Positions 3,407 through 32,170 of a stretch of DNA of 32,170 nt are shown piece after piece. A program made the translations under genes and the position numbers. The stretch lies in NCBI GenBank assembly GCA_902629855.1, contig CACOSI010000008.1, positions 1-32,170 of the forward strand, read 5' to 3'. The stretch comes from an uncultured Fidelibacterota bacterium (GTDB lineage Bacteria > Fidelibacterota > Marinisomatia > Marinisomatales > Marinisomataceae). Each line of letters opens with the position of its first letter. The first letter of the stretch is position 1. The notes below the pieces were generated by a model that saw nothing but the letters and a program-made list of their open reading frames with translations, was not told the DNA's origin and did not search any database.

Positions 3407-4502
3407 TTATTTATTTTTTTCCATTTTATCTAACAAATAACTATACATGAACTCATCTAAATTACCGTCCATAATTGACTTAATATTACCAACTTCAAAT
3501 TTTGTTCGATGATCTTTAATCATATTGTATGGATGAAAAACATATGACCTAATCTGACTTCCCCATCCTATATCCATTTTTTCACCTTCTAGTTCTTTTT
3601 TTGATTGTTTCTGTTTTTCAATTTCTAATTGATAAAGTTTTGATTTAAGAACTTTCATTGCTTGATCTTTGTTTTTATGCTGCGATCTTTGAGTTTGACA
3701 TTGAGTAACAATTCCAGAGGGTATGTGAGTAATTCTGATAGCAGAGTCCGTTTTATTCACATGTTGACCCCCGGCTCCACTTGAACGGAAAGTATCTATT
3801 CTTAAATCTTTTTGATTTATTTCAATATCAATCTCCTCACTAATGGAAGGTGAAACTGAAACTGAGGCAAATGAGGTATGCCTTCTACTATTAGAGTCAA
3901 ATGGTGATATTCTTACTAACCTGTGAACACCTAATTCAGACTGCATTAAGCCATAAGCATAATCGCCTTTTATTTCTATGGTACAATCTTTGATACCTGC
4001 TTCATCTCCATTTTGATAATCGATAACATTATAATCAAAACCTTTTGATTCAGACCACATTTTATACATCCTGAATAGCATTTCAGCCCAATCTTGACTT
4101 TCAGTACCACCCGCACCAGGATGAATAGTAACAATAGCATTATCTATATCATTTTTTCCGTTGAGAAGTAATTTGAGTTCAAAATCTTTTATAAGGCTAG
4201 AGAAATTTTTTAGCTCTTGATTAATTTCACTTTCATCTATTTGTTTTTTTATAAAGAATTCAAAGAGAACTTCAACATCTTCAGCTTTTTGAATTAAACT
4301 TTTTTTCATATGAATATCTTTTTCAAGGAATGATATTCTTTTCATTATAGAGGTTGTTTGGGAATTATTTTCCCAGAGCTCTGGTTTAGAGATTTGTTCT
4401 TTTAAATCTTTGAGTTCGGCATTTTTGGACTCAAAGTCAAAGATGCCTCCTTATTTGATTATATTTCTCAAAAGATAAGTTAAATCTATCTCTTATATCC
4501 AT
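3407..4502 (-). CDS. prfB: Peptide chain release factor 2, expressed by programmed +1 frameshift
   Basis: RF2 ends translation at UGA and UAA codons. The main frame carries the codon-recognition motif SPF ('RISPFDS') and the catalytic GGQ ('SGAGGQHVNKT'). A simple ORF starting at 4345 gives only 312 residues and lacks the N-terminal helix. The missing part lies upstream: an ATG at 4502 begins a 21-codon zero frame ending CAT CTT TGA. Skipping one T (base 4439) joins it to the frame that runs to the stop at 3407, giving 364 residues; E. coli RF2 has 365. In the joined protein SPF is at about 199-201 and GGQ at 244-246, close to their E. coli positions. The start overlaps the last 10 bases of the upstream prenyltransferase gene. 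Low RF2 would favour the frameshift, as in the well-known autoregulation. Confidence 0.95.
4436..4452 (-). promoter_or_regulatory. RF2 programmed +1 frameshift site
   Basis: Read on the minus strand, the element is AAGGAGG CAT CTT TGA C. It has an internal Shine-Dalgarno-like AGGAGG, one intervening codon, the slippery CTT codon and an in-frame TGA followed by C. Spacing is identical to the E. coli prfB element (AGGGGG TAT CTT TGA C). The ribosome is expected to pause at TGA when RF2 is scarce, slip forward by one base and continue with GAC. The sequence match and the reading-frame change are seen directly; the regulation is established for the family. Confidence 0.95.
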
Positions 4503-5968
4503 ATACTTAAAAGAACTCCAATAGTTAACAAAATACCAGTTAAGAAATGTATTCCAATTGTCGATACATTGACAATTAATAATTCATACGGTAGCTGTTG
4601 AAGATTTGCATCTTCTTTTTCCCATTCCGTGAGCCAACTCATCCCTTTTTTATTTGCAAAATTAAAAATAGCTAATGGTAGTAAGGCTATAAGAGTAAAA
4701 TAGTTTCCAGCATAAAAAGAAGCAGCACAAATAAGTAAAAATGAAATTATCATAAGATTTCTCCATACTGCAAAAGGTTTTCTATAATTTGCTTTATCTG
4801 ATGGACCTGCAAGTTTAACGACCCAACTATTTTTATTAGCTGCTTTATCAGCATTATAATCTTGAAAACAATTAATAAATAATACTAGTGCAATAAAAAT
4901 ACCTACAGGAACGGAATATAATAGGGTTGCTACAGGGTCAATTGTTTGAGTAGGGGCTACAGCTTGATTTTGCATAAAAGCCGCACCGTATACCATAAGA
5001 GGACCAAAACCGATAAAGACAGCAAGATCTCCTAAGCCATTATATGCAAGCTTTAAAAAACCTGTGTACATTATTCCTAAGAATAAACCTAAATAACCAA
5101 GATACATTAAAGGAGAATTCCAATCACCATTAAAAAATTGATTATTCATTTCTAAACCAATAAAAAAGGTTGCTGAGAAAAATCCAATTGACAATAAAAG
5201 CATATTCGTTGGCGTAATTAATCCTGATTGAATAGATCTTGAGCCTCCATTAAATGGACTAGCTAATTTATTCATTTCATCATTTCTTGAACGATGATCA
5301 AAATAATCATTTATGTTATTTGTTCCTATTTGTGCAAATATTCCTCCAAACATTACTAACCAAAATATTCCCCAATCAAAAGATCCAAACTGCTTATAGG
5401 CTATAGCTGAACCTAATAAAATAGGAGCTATTGTAGCAGTAAGAAAAGGTGCTCTTACAACTGCAGCCCAATATTTTAATGTATTAGTAATATTCGATTT
5501 TACTTCGCTAAGAAAACTTGGTCTATTTTCAGGTAACTCCATCCACTCAAATTTTTCTTCAGCAAAGAAATCTACGTATTTAATCACAGTTGGTTTTATT
5601 TTATAATATCCTACAACATCATTTTGAATTAAAAACTCATCATGCATAAAATCTGAAAAGGCTTCTGTAACATTCAGTATAGCTTCTCTAGCTTTATTTG
5701 CTTCATCTTTATCTGTTATTTTGTGAGCATATCCATCAATCTGTAATTCTTTTATTCCATCTTCACCATCAGGTCTTATAACACATTGTACTTTTGGATT
5801 AACGGATATTTGAACTGCCTTTCTTGAAGGATTGAAAGTAAAGAAATAAATATCTGTACCATCATTTGCATAATAAACATTTGCTGCAGATGCATTACCT
5901 GCGACGCTTGTAGATAGAGTCATAAAATTTGCTCTATCTAAAAAATCCTGAATCTTTTCACTTAACAT
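4493..5968 (-). CDS. Fusion of an FMN-binding PPOX-like domain with a MenA/UbiA-type prenyltransferase
   Basis: This single uninterrupted 491-residue frame holds two domains. Residues 1-145 are soluble and resemble pyridoxamine 5'-phosphate oxidase-like split-barrel flavoproteins ('FMTLSTSVAGNASAANVYYA', 'NPSRKAVQISVNPKVQCVI'). Residues about 160-491 are a polytopic UbiA-family prenyltransferase. Its first Asp-rich motif is NDYFDHRSRND at 220-230 and its second is DYNADKAANK at 370-379. The best guess for the C-terminal part is MenA, which prenylates 1,4-dihydroxy-2-naphthoate in menaquinone synthesis; other UbiA substrates are possible. The ATG at 5968 is preceded by GAGGAG with six bases of spacing, which supports translation of the whole fusion. 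The role of the flavin-type domain is unknown; it might act on a quinone intermediate. The gene directly follows cdaA and overlaps the prfB start. Confidence 0.82.
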   Translation of the reverse strand: MLSEKIQDFLDRANFMTLSTSVAGNASAANVYYANDGTDIYFFTFNPSRKAVQISVNPKVQCVIRPDGEDGIKELQIDGYAHKITDKDEANKAREAILNVTEAFSDFMHDEFLIQNDVVGYYKIKPTVIKYVDFFAEEKFEWMELPENRPSFLSEVKSNITNTLKYWAAVVRAPFLTATIAPILLGSAIAYKQFGSFDWGIFWLVMFGGIFAQIGTNNINDYFDHRSRNDEMNKLASPFNGGSRSIQSGLITPTNMLLLSIGFFSATFFIGLEMNNQFFNGDWNSPLMYLGYLGLFLGIMYTGFLKLAYNGLGDLAVFIGFGPLMVYGAAFMQNQAVAPTQTIDPVATLLYSVPVGIFIALVLFINCFQDYNADKAANKNSWVVKLAGPSDKANYRKPFAVWRNLMIISFLLICAASFYAGNYFTLIALLPLAIFNFANKKGMSWLTEWEKEDANLQQLPYELLIVNVSTIGIHFLTGILLTIGVLLSIWI

Positions 5969-6748
5969 TTAATTCTCCTCTTTTAGCTCATTCATTTTTT
6001 CTTTGAGTATTTTACCTAATTCATCTCTTGAAAGTGCAGAACTTATAAAAAATCCGTTTTCTGCAACAGAAATTTTTCCTGTTTCTTCCGAGATTACAAC
6101 TGCTATAGCATCGCTTTCTTCTGAAATTCCTAAAGCTGCCCTGTGTCTTGTACCCATTTCTGGATTCAAAGTTTTACTTTCAGTTAATGGTAAAATACAT
6201 GCAGCTGCTTCAATTAGATTATTATGAATTACTACAGCACCGTCATGTAGTGGTGAGGAGGGATTAAAAATTGAGACCAATAATTCTGGACTAAATGTTG
6301 CGTTCATTGGAACAGCATCTGAAACAACATTTTTCAATGAATTTTCTCTTTCAAAAACTAATAAAGCTCCCCACTTATTTTTCTTTATTTCATCTATACA
6401 TGAGAGAATATCATCCTGAATTTCGGTTTTTTCAATTTGAAATAACTTACTAATGATTTTATTTTGACCAACTGATGTTAGTAATCTTCTTATTTCAGGT
6501 TGAAACAAGATTACAAATACAACTACCCAAACAGTTTGAAATAAGTTTACTAGCCATGAGGTTGCTTTAAAGCCTAAAATATTGATTATAAAGCCTGCAA
6601 AAAATAGAATTAAAAGGCCAATTAACATTTGTCCACCTCTTGTACCTCTAAAGTATGAATAGGCATAAGAAAAAATGAAAGTTACAAGGATCAAATCAAA
6701 TAGATCTGTGATTGTGAACTTTAAAAAACTTATCTCAAAAAGATTCAT
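5969..6748 (-). CDS. cdaA: Diadenylate cyclase (c-di-AMP synthase), CdaA type
   Basis: CdaA makes cyclic di-AMP from two ATP at the inner face of the membrane. The 259-residue protein has three predicted membrane helices within residues 10-85, then the DisA_N catalytic domain. The two signature motifs are present: DGA at 169-171 ('SPLHDGAVVIHNN') and RHR at 201-203 ('GTRHRAALGISE'). Length fits the family (about 270). It lies 8 bases after folP, and its stop codon sits immediately before the ATG of the prenyltransferase fusion, whose Shine-Dalgarno sequence lies inside the cdaA 3' end. c-di-AMP often controls potassium and osmotic balance, which would suit a sodium-using marine bacterium; that link is inference. 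Confidence 0.93.
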   Translation of the reverse strand: MNLFEISFLKFTITDLFDLILVTFIFSYAYSYFRGTRGGQMLIGLLILFFAGFIINILGFKATSWLVNLFQTVWVVVFVILFQPEIRRLLTSVGQNKIISKLFQIEKTEIQDDILSCIDEIKKNKWGALLVFERENSLKNVVSDAVPMNATFSPELLVSIFNPSSPLHDGAVVIHNNLIEAAACILPLTESKTLNPEMGTRHRAALGISEESDAIAVVISEETGKISVAENGFFISSALSRDELGKILKEKMNELKEEN

Positions 6749-6756
6749 ATTATAAT

Positions 6757-7608
6757 TTAGGTAATTAAATCAATTGGATTGAAAATTTTATTCGCAATAA
6801 TTAATGATTTTTTTGCGGCTAATACATCGTGGACTCTGAAAATTTTTGCTCCTTTTTGTAAACCAATTACATTTGCTGCAATAGAACCTTCCAAACGATC
6901 TTTTTCTTCAACATCAAGCGTGAGTCCAATGAATGACTTTCGTGATGCACCTAGAAGAACTGGAAAACCAAGATCAACAAAGGAATCTAAATTATTTATG
7001 ATTTCAAAGTTATGCTCAACGGACTTCCCAAAGCCTATGCCTGGATCAATAATTATATTTTTTTTATCAATACCAGCATTTATTGCACACTTAACTCTTG
7101 AAGAAAGATAGTCTTTAATTTCAGTTATTAGGTGATCGTATGTAGGATTATTTTGCATGTTTTTTGGAATGCCCTTCATGTGCATCATTACAATAGGAGA
7201 ATTGTAATTTTTTGCAACCTGAAGCATATTTTCATCAATTTCCATAGCACTTACATCATTAATAATATTAGCTCCAGCTGTTATTGCTTCTTCTGCTACC
7301 TTAGATTTTGTTGTATCAATGGAAATTAGAATGTCGTATTCTGATCTAATTTTTTCGATTACTGGAATAACTCTAGAAAGCTCTTCATCTGTTGAAACTG
7401 GGTCTGCAAAAGGTTTAGTTGATTCACCACCAATATCAATAATATCTGCGCCTTCTTCAATCATTTTTACAGAATGAGTAAATGCATTTTCTACTTTCAA
7501 AAACTGTCCTCCGTCTGAGAAAGAATCGGGAGTAACATTTAATATACCCATAATTAAATATGGTTTTTCAGATTTGACTAACCAATTATTGAAAGCGTTT
7601 ATATTCAC
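6757..7608 (-). CDS. folP: Dihydropteroate synthase
   Basis: FolP condenses p-aminobenzoate with dihydropterin pyrophosphate in folate synthesis and is the target of sulfonamides. Family motifs are visible in the 283-residue protein: 'MGILNVTPDSFSDGG' at about 20-34, 'IDIGGESTKP' for the pterin site, and 'IDPGIGFGKS' further on. The start is GTG at 7608, two bases after the ftsH stop, with no convincing Shine-Dalgarno sequence. The first ATG inside lies at residue 20, within the conserved motif, so GTG is the better start. It sits between ftsH and cdaA in a tilS-ftsH-folP-cdaA run. Confidence 0.96.
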   Translation of the reverse strand: MNINAFNNWLVKSEKPYLIMGILNVTPDSFSDGGQFLKVENAFTHSVKMIEEGADIIDIGGESTKPFADPVSTDEELSRVIPVIEKIRSEYDILISIDTTKSKVAEEAITAGANIINDVSAMEIDENMLQVAKNYNSPIVMMHMKGIPKNMQNNPTYDHLITEIKDYLSSRVKCAINAGIDKKNIIIDPGIGFGKSVEHNFEIINNLDSFVDLGFPVLLGASRKSFIGLTLDVEEKDRLEGSIAANVIGLQKGAKIFRVHDVLAAKKSLIIANKIFNPIDLIT

Positions 7609-25846: not shown

Positions 25847-26862
25847 TTTTTCGGAAATTTCTCAGATGGTATCTGTACGAATGTGCCATCATTATTAACT
25901 AAAATTACTAGCGACTCAAGCTTATCAAACTTTTTAATAGAATCTGAAATTTCATTAAGCTTCATAGTATAATACATTGTTGATAATGCATCTGCATCCA
26001 TACATGACTCTTCTGAAATGATAGAAATTGATCCAATTTGTGATTGAACAGGCTTGCCTGTTTTAATATCTATTTCATGATGATAAAATTTGTCATCATA
26101 AATAAAATAGTTTCTATAATTACCAGATGTTGCTATTGATAAATTGTTTAAAGTGATAATTTTTTCGATATCATTTGAAAAATTATTAATTGAGGGTGTG
26201 TTTATGCCTATTTTCCAGTCTTTGGTGGTCGACTTTGTTCTAATCTCACCGCCAATTTCAACAAATACCTCGTCATAATTTTCTAAAAAATTAAAAATTT
26301 TATCAACCGCAAAACCTTTAGCTATTGAACTTAAATCTAATTGAACTCTAGAATCTTTTTTTCGCAATTTACCATCATTAATTTCAATAAGATTTTGACC
26401 AACAAATTGTTTAACACTATCTATTTCAGCTTCAGTGGGAGGGTTTAAAAATTTTTCTGGACCAAAACCCCACAAATTTACAAGAGGCTGAACAGTAATA
26501 TCATATCTTCCATCTGATAGTTCATTATACTTAAATGACTGCTTAACAACATAGGAAAAGTCTTTTGATATATTGAACCATTCAGTACTCTTTGAAGAGT
26601 TAAATTTTGATATTTCACTTTCAGGAATGTAAGTAGACATTTCTAGATTAATATTTTTTAAGATTTTTTCAATTTCCTTTTGAACTATTTCAACTTCACT
26701 ACTATCTTTTTTTTCAGAAGAATATTTGATATTGTATGAAGTTCCCATTGTGGAACCTTTTATTGAGATAATATCTAATTCAATACTATTATTGTTTGGA
26801 CTAGAACAAGATATTAATGAAAATATAAAGACTAAAAAAAATCTTTTAGCCAAAATCATCAT
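25843..26862 (-). CDS. apbE: FAD:protein FMN transferase ApbE (lipoprotein)
   Basis: ApbE attaches FMN through a phosphoester bond to Thr of the SGAT-type motifs of NqrB and NqrC. The 339-residue protein starts with a lipoprotein signal peptide and lipobox LISC (Cys19), so it sits on the periplasmic side of a membrane. Family blocks follow: 'GSTMGTSYNIKY', 'YDITVQPLVNLWGFGP', 'LDLSSIAKGFAVDKI', 'IATSGNYRNYF' and 'SCMDADALSTMYY' (metal-binding Asp). The start overlaps nqrF by 17 bases. Its two target proteins are encoded in the same operon. Its stop overlaps the stop of the convergent nqrM. Confidence 0.95.
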   Translation of the reverse strand: MMILAKRFFLVFIFSLISCSSPNNNSIELDIISIKGSTMGTSYNIKYSSEKKDSSEVEIVQKEIEKILKNINLEMSTYIPESEISKFNSSKSTEWFNISKDFSYVVKQSFKYNELSDGRYDITVQPLVNLWGFGPEKFLNPPTEAEIDSVKQFVGQNLIEINDGKLRKKDSRVQLDLSSIAKGFAVDKIFNFLENYDEVFVEIGGEIRTKSTTKDWKIGINTPSINNFSNDIEKIITLNNLSIATSGNYRNYFIYDDKFYHHEIDIKTGKPVQSQIGSISIISEESCMDADALSTMYYTMKLNEISDSIKKFDKLESLVILVNNDGTFVQIPSEKFPKN

Positions 26863-28072
26863 AAGCTATCATATCCTCTTCAACTCCTAAATCCCATAAC
26901 ATTTTTTGGACAGCGCTAATCATCATTGGAGGACCACATAAATAATATTCACATTCAGTAGGGTCTTCATGATTTTCAAGATGCATATCAAGTGCTACCT
27001 GGTGAATAAAACCTGTAGGACCTTCCCAATTATCTTCAGGTAGTGGATCTGATAAAGCAACTTGATAAGTGAAATTATCAAACTCTTCAGCTAATTCTTT
27101 AAACTCATCATCGTAAAACATTTCCTTGGCAGATCTTGCACCATACCAAAATGAAATTTTTCTTTTTGACTTTTCTGTTTTTAATAAATGAAAAATATGT
27201 GATCTTAATGGAGCCATTCCTGCCCCACCTCCAATGTAAACCATTTCTCTATCAGTATCTTTTATATGGAACTCTCCATATGGTCCTGAAACAGTCACTT
27301 TATCTCCTGCTTTTAAATTAAAAACGTATGACGAAGCAATACCTGGAGGAACACTTGGCATATTTGGTGGAGGACTAGCTATTCTAATATTTAGCATGAT
27401 GATATTACCCTCTGCAGGATGGTTAGCCATAGAATATGCCCTAAATACTGGCTCAGTATTTTCAGCAGTATACTGCCAAACATCGAATTGATCCCAATCA
27501 CTAGTATATAAATCTTGTATTTCAAAATTTTTATATTCAATGTCTTTATAAGCTGGAACATCAATTTGAATATAACCGCCAGATTCAAAGTGAATTGGAT
27601 CATCTGCAGGAAGTTCTAATATTAGTTCTTTGATAAATGTTGCTACATTATCGTTTGATTTAACAACTGCGTCCCATTTTCTTATACTGAAGATTTCATC
27701 AGGTACTTGAATCTTCATATCATTTCTAATTTTAACTTGGCAGCCTAATCTCCAATTTTCTTTTTGATCAGATCTTGATATGTAAGCTTCTTCCGTTGGT
27801 AGAATATCACCACCACCCTCAACAACTTGGCACTTACATTGAGCACATGTACCCTGCCCACCGCATGCGGATGGTAAATAAACGTTTTGTGAAGCAAGAG
27901 CTGATAAAACTGTTCCACCAGTATCAACCTTAATTGATTTATCATTATCATTATTTATCAATAATGTTACTTCTCCTTGCGGCAGCAAAAAATTACCTAA
28001 AACGTTTAAAATAATAACAAGTGATAAAATCACTGTTGAAAAAACTAATACTCCTAAAAAAATATCATTCAT
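26846..28072 (-). CDS. nqrF: Na+-NQR subunit F, NADH dehydrogenase flavoprotein
   Basis: NqrF accepts hydride from NADH on FAD and passes electrons through a [2Fe-2S] cluster. The 408-residue protein has one N-terminal helix at about 5-27 and a ferredoxin domain with Cys70, Cys76, Cys79 and Cys111 ('[13 protein letters not shown]', 'LGCQVK'). A FAD domain with RAYSMANHP and an NADH domain with '[14 protein letters not shown]' and 'YLCGPPMM' follow. Length matches V. cholerae NqrF (about 408). The start shares a base with the nqrE stop (TAATG). Confidence 0.98.
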
Positions 28073-28695
28073 TATAAATCTATCCCCGAAAATGCCATGA
28101 AAGCCATGGACAGTAAACCTGTTAACAACATTGCCATTCCAACACCCCTCAGTCTTGGAGGAATATTAGAATATCTAATTCTATATCTTATTGAAGCAAG
28201 AGCTACAATTGCAAGAAAAAATCCTACACCTGAACCAAAACCGTAGACAACTGTTTCTGAGATAGTATATTCTCTTTCAACCATAAATAAAGATCCCCCT
28301 AAGATTGAGCAGTTTACAGCTATTAAAGGCAAGAAAATTCCTAAACTATTATACAAAGATTGTGAGAATCTTTCCATAAACATTTCAACAAGCTGGACCA
28401 TAGCTGCAATAACAGAAATGAATACAATTAATTTTAAAAATCCCAAATCTGTATCAACAAAATCATCGCTTATCCAAACTAGAGCTCCTTTCGACAATAA
28501 AAACTCCCATAGTACCCAATTAATAGGGGCTGTAATAGTCAAAACAACAATAACTGCCATCCCAATACCAACGGATGCATCAATTTTTTTTGAAATTGCT
28601 AAAAATGAGCATAGGCCCAAAAAATATGCTAAAACAATGTTTTCGATAAAAACAGCTTTAGTAAAAATACTTAAATAATGTTCTAAGCCAGTCAT
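28072..28695 (-). CDS. nqrE: Na+-NQR subunit E
   Basis: The 207-residue integral membrane subunit has six predicted helices and the pseudo-symmetric fold shared with NqrD and RnfA. 'YFLGLCSFLAISKK' and 'IAVNCSILGGSLFM' each contribute one conserved Cys, which together with those of NqrD hold the iron centre in the membrane plane that relays electrons across. It starts immediately at the end of nqrD. The iron centre is the presumed target of NqrM, encoded nearby. Confidence 0.97.
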   Translation of the reverse strand: MTGLEHYLSIFTKAVFIENIVLAYFLGLCSFLAISKKIDASVGIGMAVIVVLTITAPINWVLWEFLLSKGALVWISDDFVDTDLGFLKLIVFISVIAAMVQLVEMFMERFSQSLYNSLGIFLPLIAVNCSILGGSLFMVEREYTISETVVYGFGSGVGFFLAIVALASIRYRIRYSNIPPRLRGVGMAMLLTGLLSMAFMAFSGIDL

Positions 28696-29349
28696 CTAAG
28701 CATCCTCCTCAACGCCAGCCATTTCTCTTTGAACCCATATAACTAAACCTAAGATGATAAATGCTCCAGGAGATAAAACTAAAAGTCCAACATTTTCATA
28801 TCCTGCAGCATACCATGATTCAGGAATTCTCCAAAGAACATATCCTGCTCCACCATCAGGTAATGTAATTGTTCCTGCCCCAAATAATTCTCTGAAGAAA
28901 GAAACAATGATAATAATTAGTCCATATCCAAAGCCATTTCCAATACCATCTAAAAAGGCTTTTGATGGACCATTTTTTAGAGCAAAAGCTTCTGCTCTAC
29001 CCATTATAATGCAATTTGTAATAATTAAACCTACAAAAACTGATAATTGTTTACTCATATCATATAGGTATGCTTTTAATAGTTCATCAACAACAGATAC
29101 GAGTGATGCAATTACGGATAACATAATTACAATTCTTACTCTATTGGGGATATAATTTCTAATTAGAGATAGTATTACGTTTGAAGAACACAAAACAAAA
29201 ATTACAGCCAGAGTCATAATTATTGCCTGATCTAGTCTAATTGTAACAGCTAATGCAGAACAAATTCCTAAAACTTGAAGTGATATAGGATTATTAACAT
29301 TAATTGGATCGCTAATAATTTTTTTTGATTCTGAATTAAATAGTTCCAT
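28696..29349 (-). CDS. nqrD: Na+-NQR subunit D
   Basis: The 217-residue membrane subunit pairs with NqrE. Its conserved cysteines are in '[13 protein letters not shown]' and '[15 protein letters not shown]'. Six helices are predicted, followed by a polar C-terminus. '[23 protein letters not shown]' agrees with the NqrD/RnfE family. The start overlaps nqrC by 14 bases and the stop adjoins nqrE. The gene is complete and of normal length. Confidence 0.97.
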
Positions 29350-30091
29350 AGTCTCTTATTTTATCTAAGGTTTTCTCATATCTTAATAAATCTTCTAAAA
29401 GAAAATCAGTGACACCATCAGCAGTTACAGTAGCTCCTGAGATTCCATCTACTTGATGGATAGATTCCATGTTTGTGTCAGAATAGTCAACTCCACCTTT
29501 AACGACTTTTATGCTAACAATTTTACCGCTTGTATTTCTAATTTTTTTTGGAACATATGATATTGAACCACTTGCATCTTTTAATGGGTGATTTATGAAG
29601 TTGTCAGTAAACCACTTCTTTTCAACCTCTCCACCAAGACCAGGCGTTTCACCATGTTTGTAGAATTGAATTCCAAGTACTGATTCTGTATCTGGATTCA
29701 ATGCAATATAACCAAAAATTGTTGACCACAAACCTTTTCCAGCAACTGGTAAAGCTATACCTTTAATTTCATTATTATCTTTTCTAATATATATTGGAAG
29801 GACGTCAACATTTTTTTCAATATCAATTTCTTCAATAGCACATTCAACAACTTCTCCTTCAATATTTACACACTTTGCATCAATATAACTTTTAAATGTT
29901 TGCTCAATAAGCTCATTTGAGAGAAGAAGATTTTCGTCAAAATTTAAAGATCTAAGAATAGTCTTTTGTACATCAGCTTTAAGGTTTTCCTCTTGAAGAT
30001 CTTTAATACTATCTTTAGTAAATGATAGCATTGATCCCAATATGATTGTTACAATAAAAACAAATCCTAATGTATAATTATTACTGTGCAT
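29336..30091 (-). CDS. nqrC: Na+-NQR subunit C (FMN-binding)
   Basis: NqrC carries covalent FMN on the periplasmic side of the membrane. The 251-residue protein has one N-terminal helix at about 7-24 and a periplasmic FMN-binding domain ending with the flavinylation motif SGAT at 218-221 ('[16 protein letters not shown]'), where Thr221 is the expected attachment site for ApbE. '[15 protein letters not shown]' is a further family block. It overlaps nqrB by 11 bases and nqrD by 14. Confidence 0.97.
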
Positions 30092-31289
30092 TTCTACTTA
30101 ACCTCATTTTAATATTTGATTGAACGACATAGTAATCTATTAATGGAGCAAACATATTCATGATAAGTATAGCTAAGAAAACACCTTCTGGATACGCTGG
30201 ATTAATTGAGCGAATGATTACAGTTAATACTCCAATCAGAAATCCATAAATCCATCTTCCTGTGTTAGTATGAGAAGAAGTAACGGGCTCTGTCGCCATA
30301 AAAACAGTTCCAAATAGAAAACTACCTAATAAAATATGTTGTAAAGGAGTAATGGTTAACATTGCATTTGGTGTACCACCAGATTCTAAGATACCTTCAA
30401 CAGTTAACATACTTAATAAATTAAAGAGAACTGCTGTAAAAACTAAACCAATAACACAAGAAACCATAATTCTCCAAGATGCAATACCACAATAAATTAG
30501 AAAAATTGCCCCTAATAAAATTAATAACTTGTTAGTTTCACCTATTGATCCGGGTATTAGTCCCCAAAAAAGATTTAAATTAGAATAATCAAATTGTGAA
30601 ATATTTGCATATAAATTCGATGCAGTATCATATTCTGCAGGATTAGCAGGTACTGCTAATGCTGTAGCTCCAGTGTATCCATCAGGACCAACTGCCCATA
30701 CCTTATCTCCAGAAATTTTTGTTGGAAATGCGAAGTACATAAATGCTCTTGATGTGAGAGCAGGATTGAAAATATTTGTTCCAACGCCACCAAAGATTTC
30801 TTTTCCAATTATAATACCAAAACTTGTACCAACAAATACCTGCCACAAAGGTACATCTGGTGGCATTGTTAGCGGAATCAATGCACATGAAACAAGAAAA
30901 CCTTCATTCACCTCGTGTTTTCTTACAATTGCGAATGTTATCTCACAAATTGCACCAGCAATGAATGTAATTATTAAGATAGGTAGAACGTATGATAATC
31001 CAAAAATAGTGTTACCAATGATACCTTTTTCAACTCCTAATGCAAGAGAATTAAGGTAACCAATATTGTATGCTCCAAAGATGTAGCATGGAATTAGAGC
31101 TATTACCACAAAAAACATTGTCCTTTTAATATCCATATTATCTCTAATATGCGGACCACTACTGGTTTGTTTATTTGTGGAGAAAAAAATTGTGTCAGCC
31201 GCTTCCCATAAAGGATATGCCCATGATAGAGGTTTACCCTTCTCAACAAATTTTCCTGTTTCGCTAAATATTTTTCTTAAAAAATTCAT
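30081..31289 (-). CDS. nqrB: Na+-NQR subunit B
   Basis: NqrB is the large membrane subunit that holds riboflavin and a covalent FMN and forms the sodium path and part of the quinone site. The 402-residue protein has about ten helices. Its flavinylation motif is TGAT at 206-209 ('DGYTGATALA'), with Thr209 the expected FMN site; many homologues have SGAT here. 'GGVGTNIFNPALTSRAF' and 'FMATEPVTSSHTNTGRW' are other conserved blocks. Two bases separate it from the nqrA stop. Length is typical (about 400-415). Confidence 0.97.
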   Translation of the reverse strand: MNFLRKIFSETGKFVEKGKPLSWAYPLWEAADTIFFSTNKQTSSGPHIRDNMDIKRTMFFVVIALIPCYIFGAYNIGYLNSLALGVEKGIIGNTIFGLSYVLPILIITFIAGAICEITFAIVRKHEVNEGFLVSCALIPLTMPPDVPLWQVFVGTSFGIIIGKEIFGGVGTNIFNPALTSRAFMYFAFPTKISGDKVWAVGPDGYTGATALAVPANPAEYDTASNLYANISQFDYSNLNLFWGLIPGSIGETNKLLILLGAIFLIYCGIASWRIMVSCVIGLVFTAVLFNLLSMLTVEGILESGGTPNAMLTITPLQHILLGSFLFGTVFMATEPVTSSHTNTGRWIYGFLIGVLTVIIRSINPAYPEGVFLAILIMNMFAPLIDYYVVQSNIKMRLSRNAQ

Positions 31290-31291
31290 AA

Positions 31292-32170
31292 TTACTGATC
31301 AAAATAAATTGTATCTAAACCCTTTCTAATTATTGAACCAACATCAGACTTGCTTGGACAAACAAATGAGCATAAAGCTACATCTTCTTCATCGCATTCA
31401 TATATTCCTAATTGCTCCATTTCATCAATGTCATTCGCTTCTATACTTCTGGCAAGAGCATTTATATGAATGTCCATTGGAAAAACTTTTTCCCATGCGT
31501 CAATTGGAACAAATGCTCTATTACTTCCATTTTGTAAGGTAGTAAAGTTAAATGATTTTTTGTTTGAACCAAAGTATGCATTAAAAATACTATATCTCGA
31601 TTTTCCTCCTGGATGCAACCATCCAATAAAAGGTCTTTCATAAGATTCTTCAATAACTGAAAACATCGAATGATAAAAACCTAAAAAACCGTCCAAAGAA
31701 ACTTGCTTTCCAGTTAAAACATCTCCAGATATTACTCTAACATTATCAATTATTAAACTACTCTTATGAGAAGAAAAACTAGCTCCTAAACGTGACTTTA
31801 CATAGCTTGGATTGACTGCTGGTCCCGAAACATTAATGGAAATAGAAGGATCAAAATATCCTTTCGAAAATAATTTACCTAATATAGGCAAATGAAATCC
31901 CTTGACAGTCCAAACCACCTCGTTTGAATTTATCGGGTCAATTTTATTTAAAATAACACCTATGTTACCTGCTGGATGTGGTCCATCAACTTCAATTAAA
32001 TCAATGAAATCTATTGAAGATAAATATGAAAACTCGTTTTTGTTTGTTGCAACATATAATTTTCCATCTGTTAGCTTTCTAAGATTTGATAATGCTGATA
32101 TAATATGATCTTTTTGAGAGTCTAAAGTAAAAGATAGATCGGTACTCAAAGGAGCTGAATTTACAAGACT
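31292..32170 (-). CDS. nqrA: Na+-NQR subunit A, N-terminal part outside the window
   Basis: The frame is open from the stop at 31292 to the right edge, giving 292 residues, so the gene continues beyond base 32170; NqrA proteins have about 450 residues. The TTG at 32147-32149 inside it is not the start. Family blocks are seen: 'DGPHPAGNIGVILNKIDP', 'SGDVLTGKQ', and near the C-terminus 'CDEEDVALCSFVCPSKSDVG', the usual ending of NqrA. This soluble subunit faces the cytoplasm and is implicated in quinone binding. It would be the first gene of the nqr operon; its promoter is not in the window. Confidence 0.97.
   Translation of the reverse strand, partial: SLVNSAPLSTDLSFTLDSQKDHIISALSNLRKLTDGKLYVATNKNEFSYLSSIDFIDLIEVDGPHPAGNIGVILNKIDPINSNEVVWTVKGFHLPILGKLFSKGYFDPSISINVSGPAVNPSYVKSRLGASFSSHKSSLIIDNVRVISGDVLTGKQVSLDGFLGFYHSMFSVIEESYERPFIGWLHPGGKSRYSIFNAYFGSNKKSFNFTTLQNGSNRAFVPIDAWEKVFPMDIHINALARSIEANDIDEMEQLGIYECDEEDVALCSFVCPSKSDVGSIIRKGLDTIYFDQ

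Follow-up and report, generated by a model that had tools for sequence, protein, structure and literature searches.

The window analyzed here, a stretch of 32,170 nucleotides, derives from a 0.93-Mb genome (88% complete) of the Marinimicrobia (Fidelibacterota, SAR406), bacteria that are widespread in the ocean. On its minus strand, from 5968 to 4493, lies a single open frame of 491 aa with an ATG start, i.e., an intact gene. The original prediction had read this gene as one continuous frame, preceded by GAGGAG at a spacing of 6, that joins a PPOX-like flavin domain to a MenA/UbiA prenyltransferase, and had called the pairing unusual, without stating the strand. Frame and ribosome site were as described, the two domains were recovered by Pfam and Foldseek, and the pairing is indeed unusual. 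Pfam placed PNPOx_N at residues 2–93 (42 bits; cut-off 28.1) and UbiA at residues 181–437 (93.2 bits; cut-off 34.2). An AlphaFold2 model of the two-domain protein, for which 23 natural fusion sequences were used, had a pLDDT of 88.5 and a pTM of 0.84. The stop codon of cdaA abuts the start of the fusion gene, and cdaA is a conserved neighbor across the genus. In the genus, the genes immediately upstream of the fusion are cdaA and folP (window 5969–7608), which might share a transcript with it.

Table 1. Features of the PPOX-UbiA locus and of the respiratory genes in the window.
Feature	Position	Strand	Basis or remark
PPOX-UbiA fusion gene, 491 aa	4493..5968	-	ORF and Pfam; conserved within the genus and beyond
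N-terminal FMN split-barrel (PNPOx-like) domain, residues 1-145 (putative FMN binding)	5534..5968	-	PNPOx_N 42 bits; Foldseek
FMN-phosphate motif SRKAVQISVNPKV, residues 48-60	5789..5827	-	aligned with E. coli PdxH SRKAHQIENNPRV, from residue 87
UbiA/MenA-like prenyltransferase domain, residues 160-491	4496..5491	-	UbiA 93.2 bits; Foldseek to UBIAD1 8djk
First Asp-rich motif NNINDYFDHRSRND, residues 217-230	5279..5320	-	N217, N220 invariant; D221, D224, D230 nearly so
Second Asp-rich motif NCFQDYNAD, residues 366-374	4847..4873	-	Gln in place of canonical MenA Arg
Shine-Dalgarno GAGGAG, 6 nt ahead of ATG, within cdaA 3' end	5975..5980	-	
cdaA (c-di-AMP cyclase)	5969..6748	-	DAC 145 bits, CdaA_N; directly upstream of fusion
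nqrF-E-D-C-B-A (Na+-translocating NADH:quinone reductase)	26846..32149	-	NCBIfam nqrF, E, D, C, B over cut-off; nqrA partial, cut by window end

Might an artifact have joined two genes? This objection, raised with the original prediction, fails, as the fusion is conserved in other assemblies. Thirty-three loci of other assemblies carry it, and together with the full-length copies found in about 30 genomes of the phylum (47–94% identity), they exclude a joining by sequencing or assembly error. The two halves at the junction are also alike in composition (GC, 0.31/0.31; GC3, 0.15/0.16). The fusion occurs in the genus (64–94% identity), in many other Marinimicrobia families (47–53%), and in Chloroflexota-labelled records; the further families f27–f29 have a divergent form of about 34% identity. 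No fusion match was obtained in two members of the genus that are 81% and 56% complete (G004 and G013, respectively). A third member, G014, gave only a weak match, and its sole UbiA is one CtaB-sized protein; this lack is probably an assembly gap. In yet another member, several frame changes and stops interrupt the fused gene (L187, G001:C10:4500-7000); they are probably sequencing errors in that assembly. Plasmid records yielded ordinary MenA only and no fusion.

Two side observations concern the neighborhoods of other fusions. In f27–f29, the divergent PPOX-UbiA lies within a conserved block (L082–L088) that contains purF, a second UbiA, a geranylgeranyl-reductase-like FAD protein, and a DnaQ/DinG-like nuclease-helicase. 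An f14 genome encodes an unfused UbiA of 300 aa with GGSR and QNLPD motifs 2.6 kb upstream of its PPOX-UbiA (L031:2017-2919); the tree placement of this protein, which sits on a long branch, is uncertain.

We examined the N-terminal half for signs of cofactor binding. Foldseek matched it to PNPOx-like FMN split barrels (3db0 and 3ec6, TMt 0.85; 2i02, 0.81), and several heme proteins were also among the fold matches. Heme-binding and cofactor-free members of the PNPOx split barrels exist, too. In the sequence alignment, R49-K50 of the fusion line up with the RK of SRKAHQ in PdxH. Both the fold and the SRKAxQIxxNPxV phosphate motif are thus common to this domain and to PNPOx-like proteins (PdxH, 2i02, 3db0). 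In contrast to PdxH, the fusion domain is joined to a membrane enzyme, and it scored only 19.5 bits against PdxH (cut-off 180). Judging from the sequence, we regard the split barrel as a putative FMN-binding module. The motif is present in 17/17 core fusions (47–94% identity), and the concern that the N-terminal domain might be a degenerate relic therefore does not hold for this gene. The motif, including its RK, is missing from six divergent fusions of f27–f29, indicating that flavin is not essential everywhere.

F420 was considered as another cofactor. The model for F420-dependent PPOX proteins gave 23.2 bits on the fusion (cut-off 79), and CofG and CofH, which serve F420 synthesis, had no match in G019, a genome of the same genus; F420 was accordingly rejected for the genus. 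As a separate observation, CofG and CofH are encoded about 6 kb upstream of PPOX-UbiA in a record labelled Anaerolineales (L022:13-2009) and also occur in L023 and L030.

The C-terminal half belongs to the UbiA superfamily, as evidenced by the UbiA profile, the multi-helix fold of the model, and two Asp-rich motifs. These motifs had been predicted at residues 220–230 and 370–379 and were located close by, at 217–230 (laid out as N217..N220-D221..D224..D230) and 366–379 (N366-x-x-Q-D370..D374..K379); N366, Q369, D370, and D374 are invariant among the PPOX fusions. The best family matches were the NCBIfam MenA models, all of them below their cut-offs (118 vs. 264, 90.3 vs. 102.15, and 90.6 vs. 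225 bits). The second motif of canonical MenA reads NNxRD in E. coli, Thermomicrobium, Natrinema, Parabacteroides (NNYRD), and the Men+ members of the phylum, whereas the fused clade has N-x-x-Q-D (with PPOX) or N-x-x-P-D (with PAS; see below). Because every MenA cut-off was missed and NNxRD is altered, we consider the fused UbiA to be MenA-like rather than a formal MenA. With MenA (TIGR00751 and PRK06080 groups), it has in common the UbiA fold, the NxxNDYxD first motif, a second Asp motif, and UbiE/MenG as a partner in the genome; it differs from MenA in the altered second motif, in an additional GGSR segment downstream of the first motif, in the N-terminal flavin module, and in the absence of men genes. 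These motif differences hint that its ring substrate may not be that of MenA. The closest solved structure, by sequence and by fold, is UBIAD1 (human MK-4 synthase; 8djk, TMt 0.73), which, unlike the fusion, has NNTRD and no flavin domain. UBIAD1 exchanges the side chain of imported vitamin K and is a model for salvage.

A PAS domain takes the place of PPOX on this kind of UbiA in families f5, f7, f8, f9, f10, f15, and f20; Pfam PAS_9 was detected in the six PAS-UbiA proteins tested (E, 1e-8 to 1e-11). When 71 UbiA sequences were placed in a tree, the enzymes with PPOX and those with PAS formed one clade (97/94) apart from canonical MenA, and the canonical MenA of Men+ phylum members grouped with that of E. 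coli (100/99). Within the fused clade, PAS arose once (100/98), and the PPOX enzymes, together with a few members that have no N-terminal domain, branch on the opposite side. The AlphaFold model of PAS-UbiA was weaker (pLDDT 75.8). Among solved folds, the uncharacterized PAS 3lyx was closest to the PAS domain, and the flavin-binding FAD-PAS domains of NifL and Aer, as well as LOV domains, were among the next; such folds are common in the PDB, making the flavin-type matches only suggestive. NifL and Aer are redox sensors, and their fold is near that of this PAS, which here is attached to a prenyltransferase and has a putative cofactor. Cys11 and Cys101 are among the invariant residues of the PAS sequences.

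These comparisons bear on whether the N-terminal domain could be a structural remnant that serves dimerization or stability and conducts no flavin chemistry. The six fusions that have lost the RK motif, along with the clade members that have no N-terminal domain, would accord with such a role. We consider it unlikely, given the conservation of the phosphate motif throughout the core fusions and the presence in the sister clade of a PAS domain with invariant residues, rather than nothing, at the same position. That a single membrane enzyme carries one or the other of two unrelated flavin-type domains suggests that quinone synthesis is under direct redox control.

The fusions in Chloroflexota-labelled records were compared with their surroundings. 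In two records titled Chloroflexi or Dehalococcoidia (L016 and L018), the fusion is 66–67% identical to that of G019, and the other matched genes are only 27–36% identical; in same-genus controls (L013 and L017), the neighboring genes are 42–82% identical to those of G019. Four records titled Anaerolineales (L022, L023, L030, and L032) have a fusion of 49–50% identity beside neighbors of 26–41%. By these sequence comparisons, the fusion apparently reached the Chloroflexota-labelled records by lateral transfer. The Chloroflexi- and Anaerolineales-titled fusions fall at different places inside the Marinimicrobia clade of the tree, a pattern suggestive of two transfers that involved only this gene. 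The neighbors in L016 are genes for a CoA-transferase, a citrate synthase, and an enoyl-CoA hydratase, and no UbiE gene is near the fusion in the Chloroflexota-labelled loci.

From where does the ring substrate of this enzyme come? Among 245 genomes of the phylum, most of them incomplete SAGs or MAGs, MenD exceeded its cut-off in 67 (70 at E <= 1e-40), MenB was found in 65, and MqnA in eight; none of the genomes with such a hit belongs to the genus. Known men and futalosine genes are absent from the genus. Only one of 101 fused-clade genomes had MenD and none had MqnA, and the distribution of MenB is in agreement; since genus members are not independent of one another, the statistic for this exclusion overstates its significance, and the Fisher value is not a real probability. 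The 101 comprise 33 genomes with PPOX, 10 with divergent PPOX, 52 with PAS, and six with unfused clade members, classes that were set by hit position and ORF length; 18 PAS rows (six by Pfam) and 36 PPOX rows were checked by sequence, some of them being the same locus fetched twice. Conversely, 39 of the 41 listed genomes with a short canonical MenA have MenD, and the other two (G168 and G172) have MenB. The lone MenD-positive genome of the fused clade, G038, encodes a separate MenA of canonical size within a men cluster, and in its Men+ sister, G025, the fused gene survives only as two broken shards, which contain in-frame stops and are separated by a large deletion. Both states occur within the single genera g9, g24, g33, and g59; the fused and Men systems therefore appear to replace each other repeatedly.

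We scrutinized one member of the genus, G019 (1.018 Mb in two contigs, 95% complete), in 20-kb stretches. When its 1,096 predicted proteins were compared with MenA-F, MenH, and UbiA-E of E. coli, the only real matches were the fused gene, UbiE, and a CtaB-like protein. Weak MenE-like matches are acyl-CoA ligases, and a weak MenB-like match is an enoyl-CoA hydratase. A divergent MenD in the genus was rejected, as the weak matches score as acetolactate synthase or 2-hydroxyacyl-CoA lyase. A 576-aa thiamine-diphosphate enzyme (G019:C2:76875-78605) falls between the models for these last two enzymes, below all cut-offs, and most genomes of the genus encode a relative. G019 keeps the shikimate-to-chorismate and Phe/Tyr operon; no chorismate enzyme of the TrpE, EntC, or MenF type was found there. 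Other routes fared no better. UbiD was not found in 40 of 41 relatives (none in the genus had it), PF01947 chorismate lyase was not found in any of the 41, and G019 had no match to UbiB, UbiC, or UbiD; a ubiquinone- or mPQ-type route was therefore rejected. HPPD was not found in the genus save in G009 and does not track the fusion, and a homogentisate (plastoquinone-like) route was rejected on these grounds.

It is very improbable, in light of these searches, that the fused enzyme is an ordinary MenA whose men partners were overlooked through incomplete or divergent genomes. To be sure, MenA models are its best family matches and most of the genomes are partial. However, the models for MenD, MenB, and MqnA succeed in control genomes as well as in the phylum's other families, men genes are absent even from genus genomes that are 94–98% complete, and the comparison of G019 with MenB-F and MenH of E. 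coli gave no real match.

The genomic context nevertheless calls for a quinone. The source genome encodes UbiE/MenG (G000:C6:11705-12373; 237 bits, cut-off 158) away from the fusion, and the copy in G019 passes the UbiE equivalog NF001244. Next to the fused gene of other families, in its PPOX and PAS versions alike, lies a gene for a UbiE/MenG-type methyltransferase. In a scan of fusion neighborhoods for ring genes, only UbiE was recurrently linked; carA and carB also recur and are not obviously related. The source genome has two UbiA proteins, namely the fusion and CtaB (heme O synthase); CtaA- and SCO-like genes lie beside the latter. Genes for cytochrome c maturation are also encoded. Taken with the Na+-NQR operon of the window, these genes indicate that a quinone is needed and that the last steps of its synthesis are encoded.

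Members of the UbiA family also include ether-lipid-type synthases, and the product could in principle be another prenylated lipid, e.g., an archaeal-type ether lipid. DGGGP synthases were among the fold matches of the UbiA half. We hardly expect such a product, because the fused gene is found in an operon with UbiE in relatives, its NDYxD motif is MenA-like, and larger relatives have a separate DGGGP-synthase-like UbiA. The latter protein (about 277–281 aa; L194–L199 from G038, G025, G066, G076, G026, and G185) adjoins a dnaE-like gene and usually prmC and prfA; its motifs resemble those of archaeal-type DGGGP synthase, and it was not found in the streamlined genus.

We conclude that the fusion is probably a respiratory-quinone prenyltransferase of the MenA/UBIAD1 type with a permanent N-terminal flavin module, whose ring is either scavenged or supplied by unrecognized enzymes. 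The UbiA half would place a polyprenyl chain on a hydroquinone-type ring acid, presumably a naphthoquinol or something similar; UbiE/MenG would then C-methylate the prenylated product, and Na+-NQR would use the resulting quinone. The ring itself would be imported or built by enzymes that escape recognition. The split barrel, with FMN, could tie prenylation to the redox state, acting either as a reductase on the incoming ring or as a sensor, the latter being how a flavin-type PAS would act in the sister clade. Since PAS takes the place of PPOX there, redox sensing is no less likely than reduction or protection of a naphthoquinol; the exchange favors sensing, whereas salvage of oxidized quinones from oxic water would favor reduction. 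By this account, the original prediction is borne out in part, including the modified quinone pathway that it had offered as one option.

Between scavenging of the ring and its synthesis by unknown enzymes, the odds are about even. The genus has the gene content of a DHNA-scavenging partial pathway, in which the prenyltransferase and UbiE are kept and the men genes are gone. Salvage, in which DHNA, menadione, or other quinones would be taken up, the ring reduced by PPOX, and the chain added by UbiA (as in UBIAD1 or Streptococcus, with a built-in reductase), is a possibility that we entertain with some reserve. It has precedents. The DHNA-dependent Porphyromonas pasteri has MenA and UbiE and no upstream genes (PMC9704088), and Streptococcus agalactiae keeps menA alone and forms DMK-10 from DHNA or MK-4 (PMC6030563). 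As in the present genomes, these scavengers have MenA (in P. pasteri, with the second DHNA-to-menaquinone gene) and no upstream men genes; unlike the present case, their loss is at the level of species or genus, whereas the fused UbiA is a distinct enzyme clade across a phylum. Salvage also comports with streamlined marine genomes of about 1 Mb and with the apparent gain by Chloroflexota of a single gene that has no UbiE nearby, which would pay at once only if a precursor were available. Against it, the trait is also found in genomes of 2–3.4 Mb from many families, including the one-contig G185; the canonical NNxRD is altered across the whole clade; and no importer was identified.

An unrecognized de novo ring pathway (from chorismate, tyrosine, or a polyketide), with the fused UbiA as its membrane step and perhaps a new quinone as its product, is a serious candidate, if one that we hold at a little less than even. 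The clade is ancient, spans about 100 genomes, and is devoid of all tested known routes. The motif change adjoins the catalytic Asp, and the retained shikimate-to-chorismate and Phe/Tyr operon of G019, a genome in which no enzyme of the TrpE/EntC/MenF type was found, is in keeping with such a pathway. A 2026 survey of 26,264 bacterial genomes reported many lineages, mostly Bacillota and Chloroflexota, with no known quinone pathway, inferred an alternative menaquinone route for Gloeobacter, and suggested undiscovered quinones or routes; its main text does not mention Marinimicrobia (PMC13386864). However, no candidate head-group genes emerged, the neighbors besides UbiE are uninformative, and the move of a single gene to Chloroflexota is harder to explain unless the route is present there too. 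More tentative still is the fuller proposal that the fused-clade Marinimicrobia possess a de novo head-group route distinct from the Men, futalosine, ubiquinone, and plastoquinone routes, with the flavin-gated prenyltransferase as its signature, and that the enzyme was passed to Chloroflexota, many of whose members have no known quinone pathway.

In the open-licence literature that we searched, there was no description of a UbiA-PPOX or UbiA-PAS fusion, nor of the quinones of the phylum, and the description of the phylum's named isolate mentions no quinone (PMC11652737). The larger findings of the analysis are that a known ring pathway is missing and that the N-terminal domain is exchanged between sister clades. 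Although a respiratory chain is encoded in the genus, much of the phylum has no known route to a quinone ring, and the fused enzyme marks such genomes. These observations point to an unrecognized quinone route or to scavenging in the fused-clade Marinimicrobia. The fused UbiA provides a handle on this problem, being a gene to express and a clade to profile, by which hidden biosynthesis could be distinguished from community-wide sharing of quinones.
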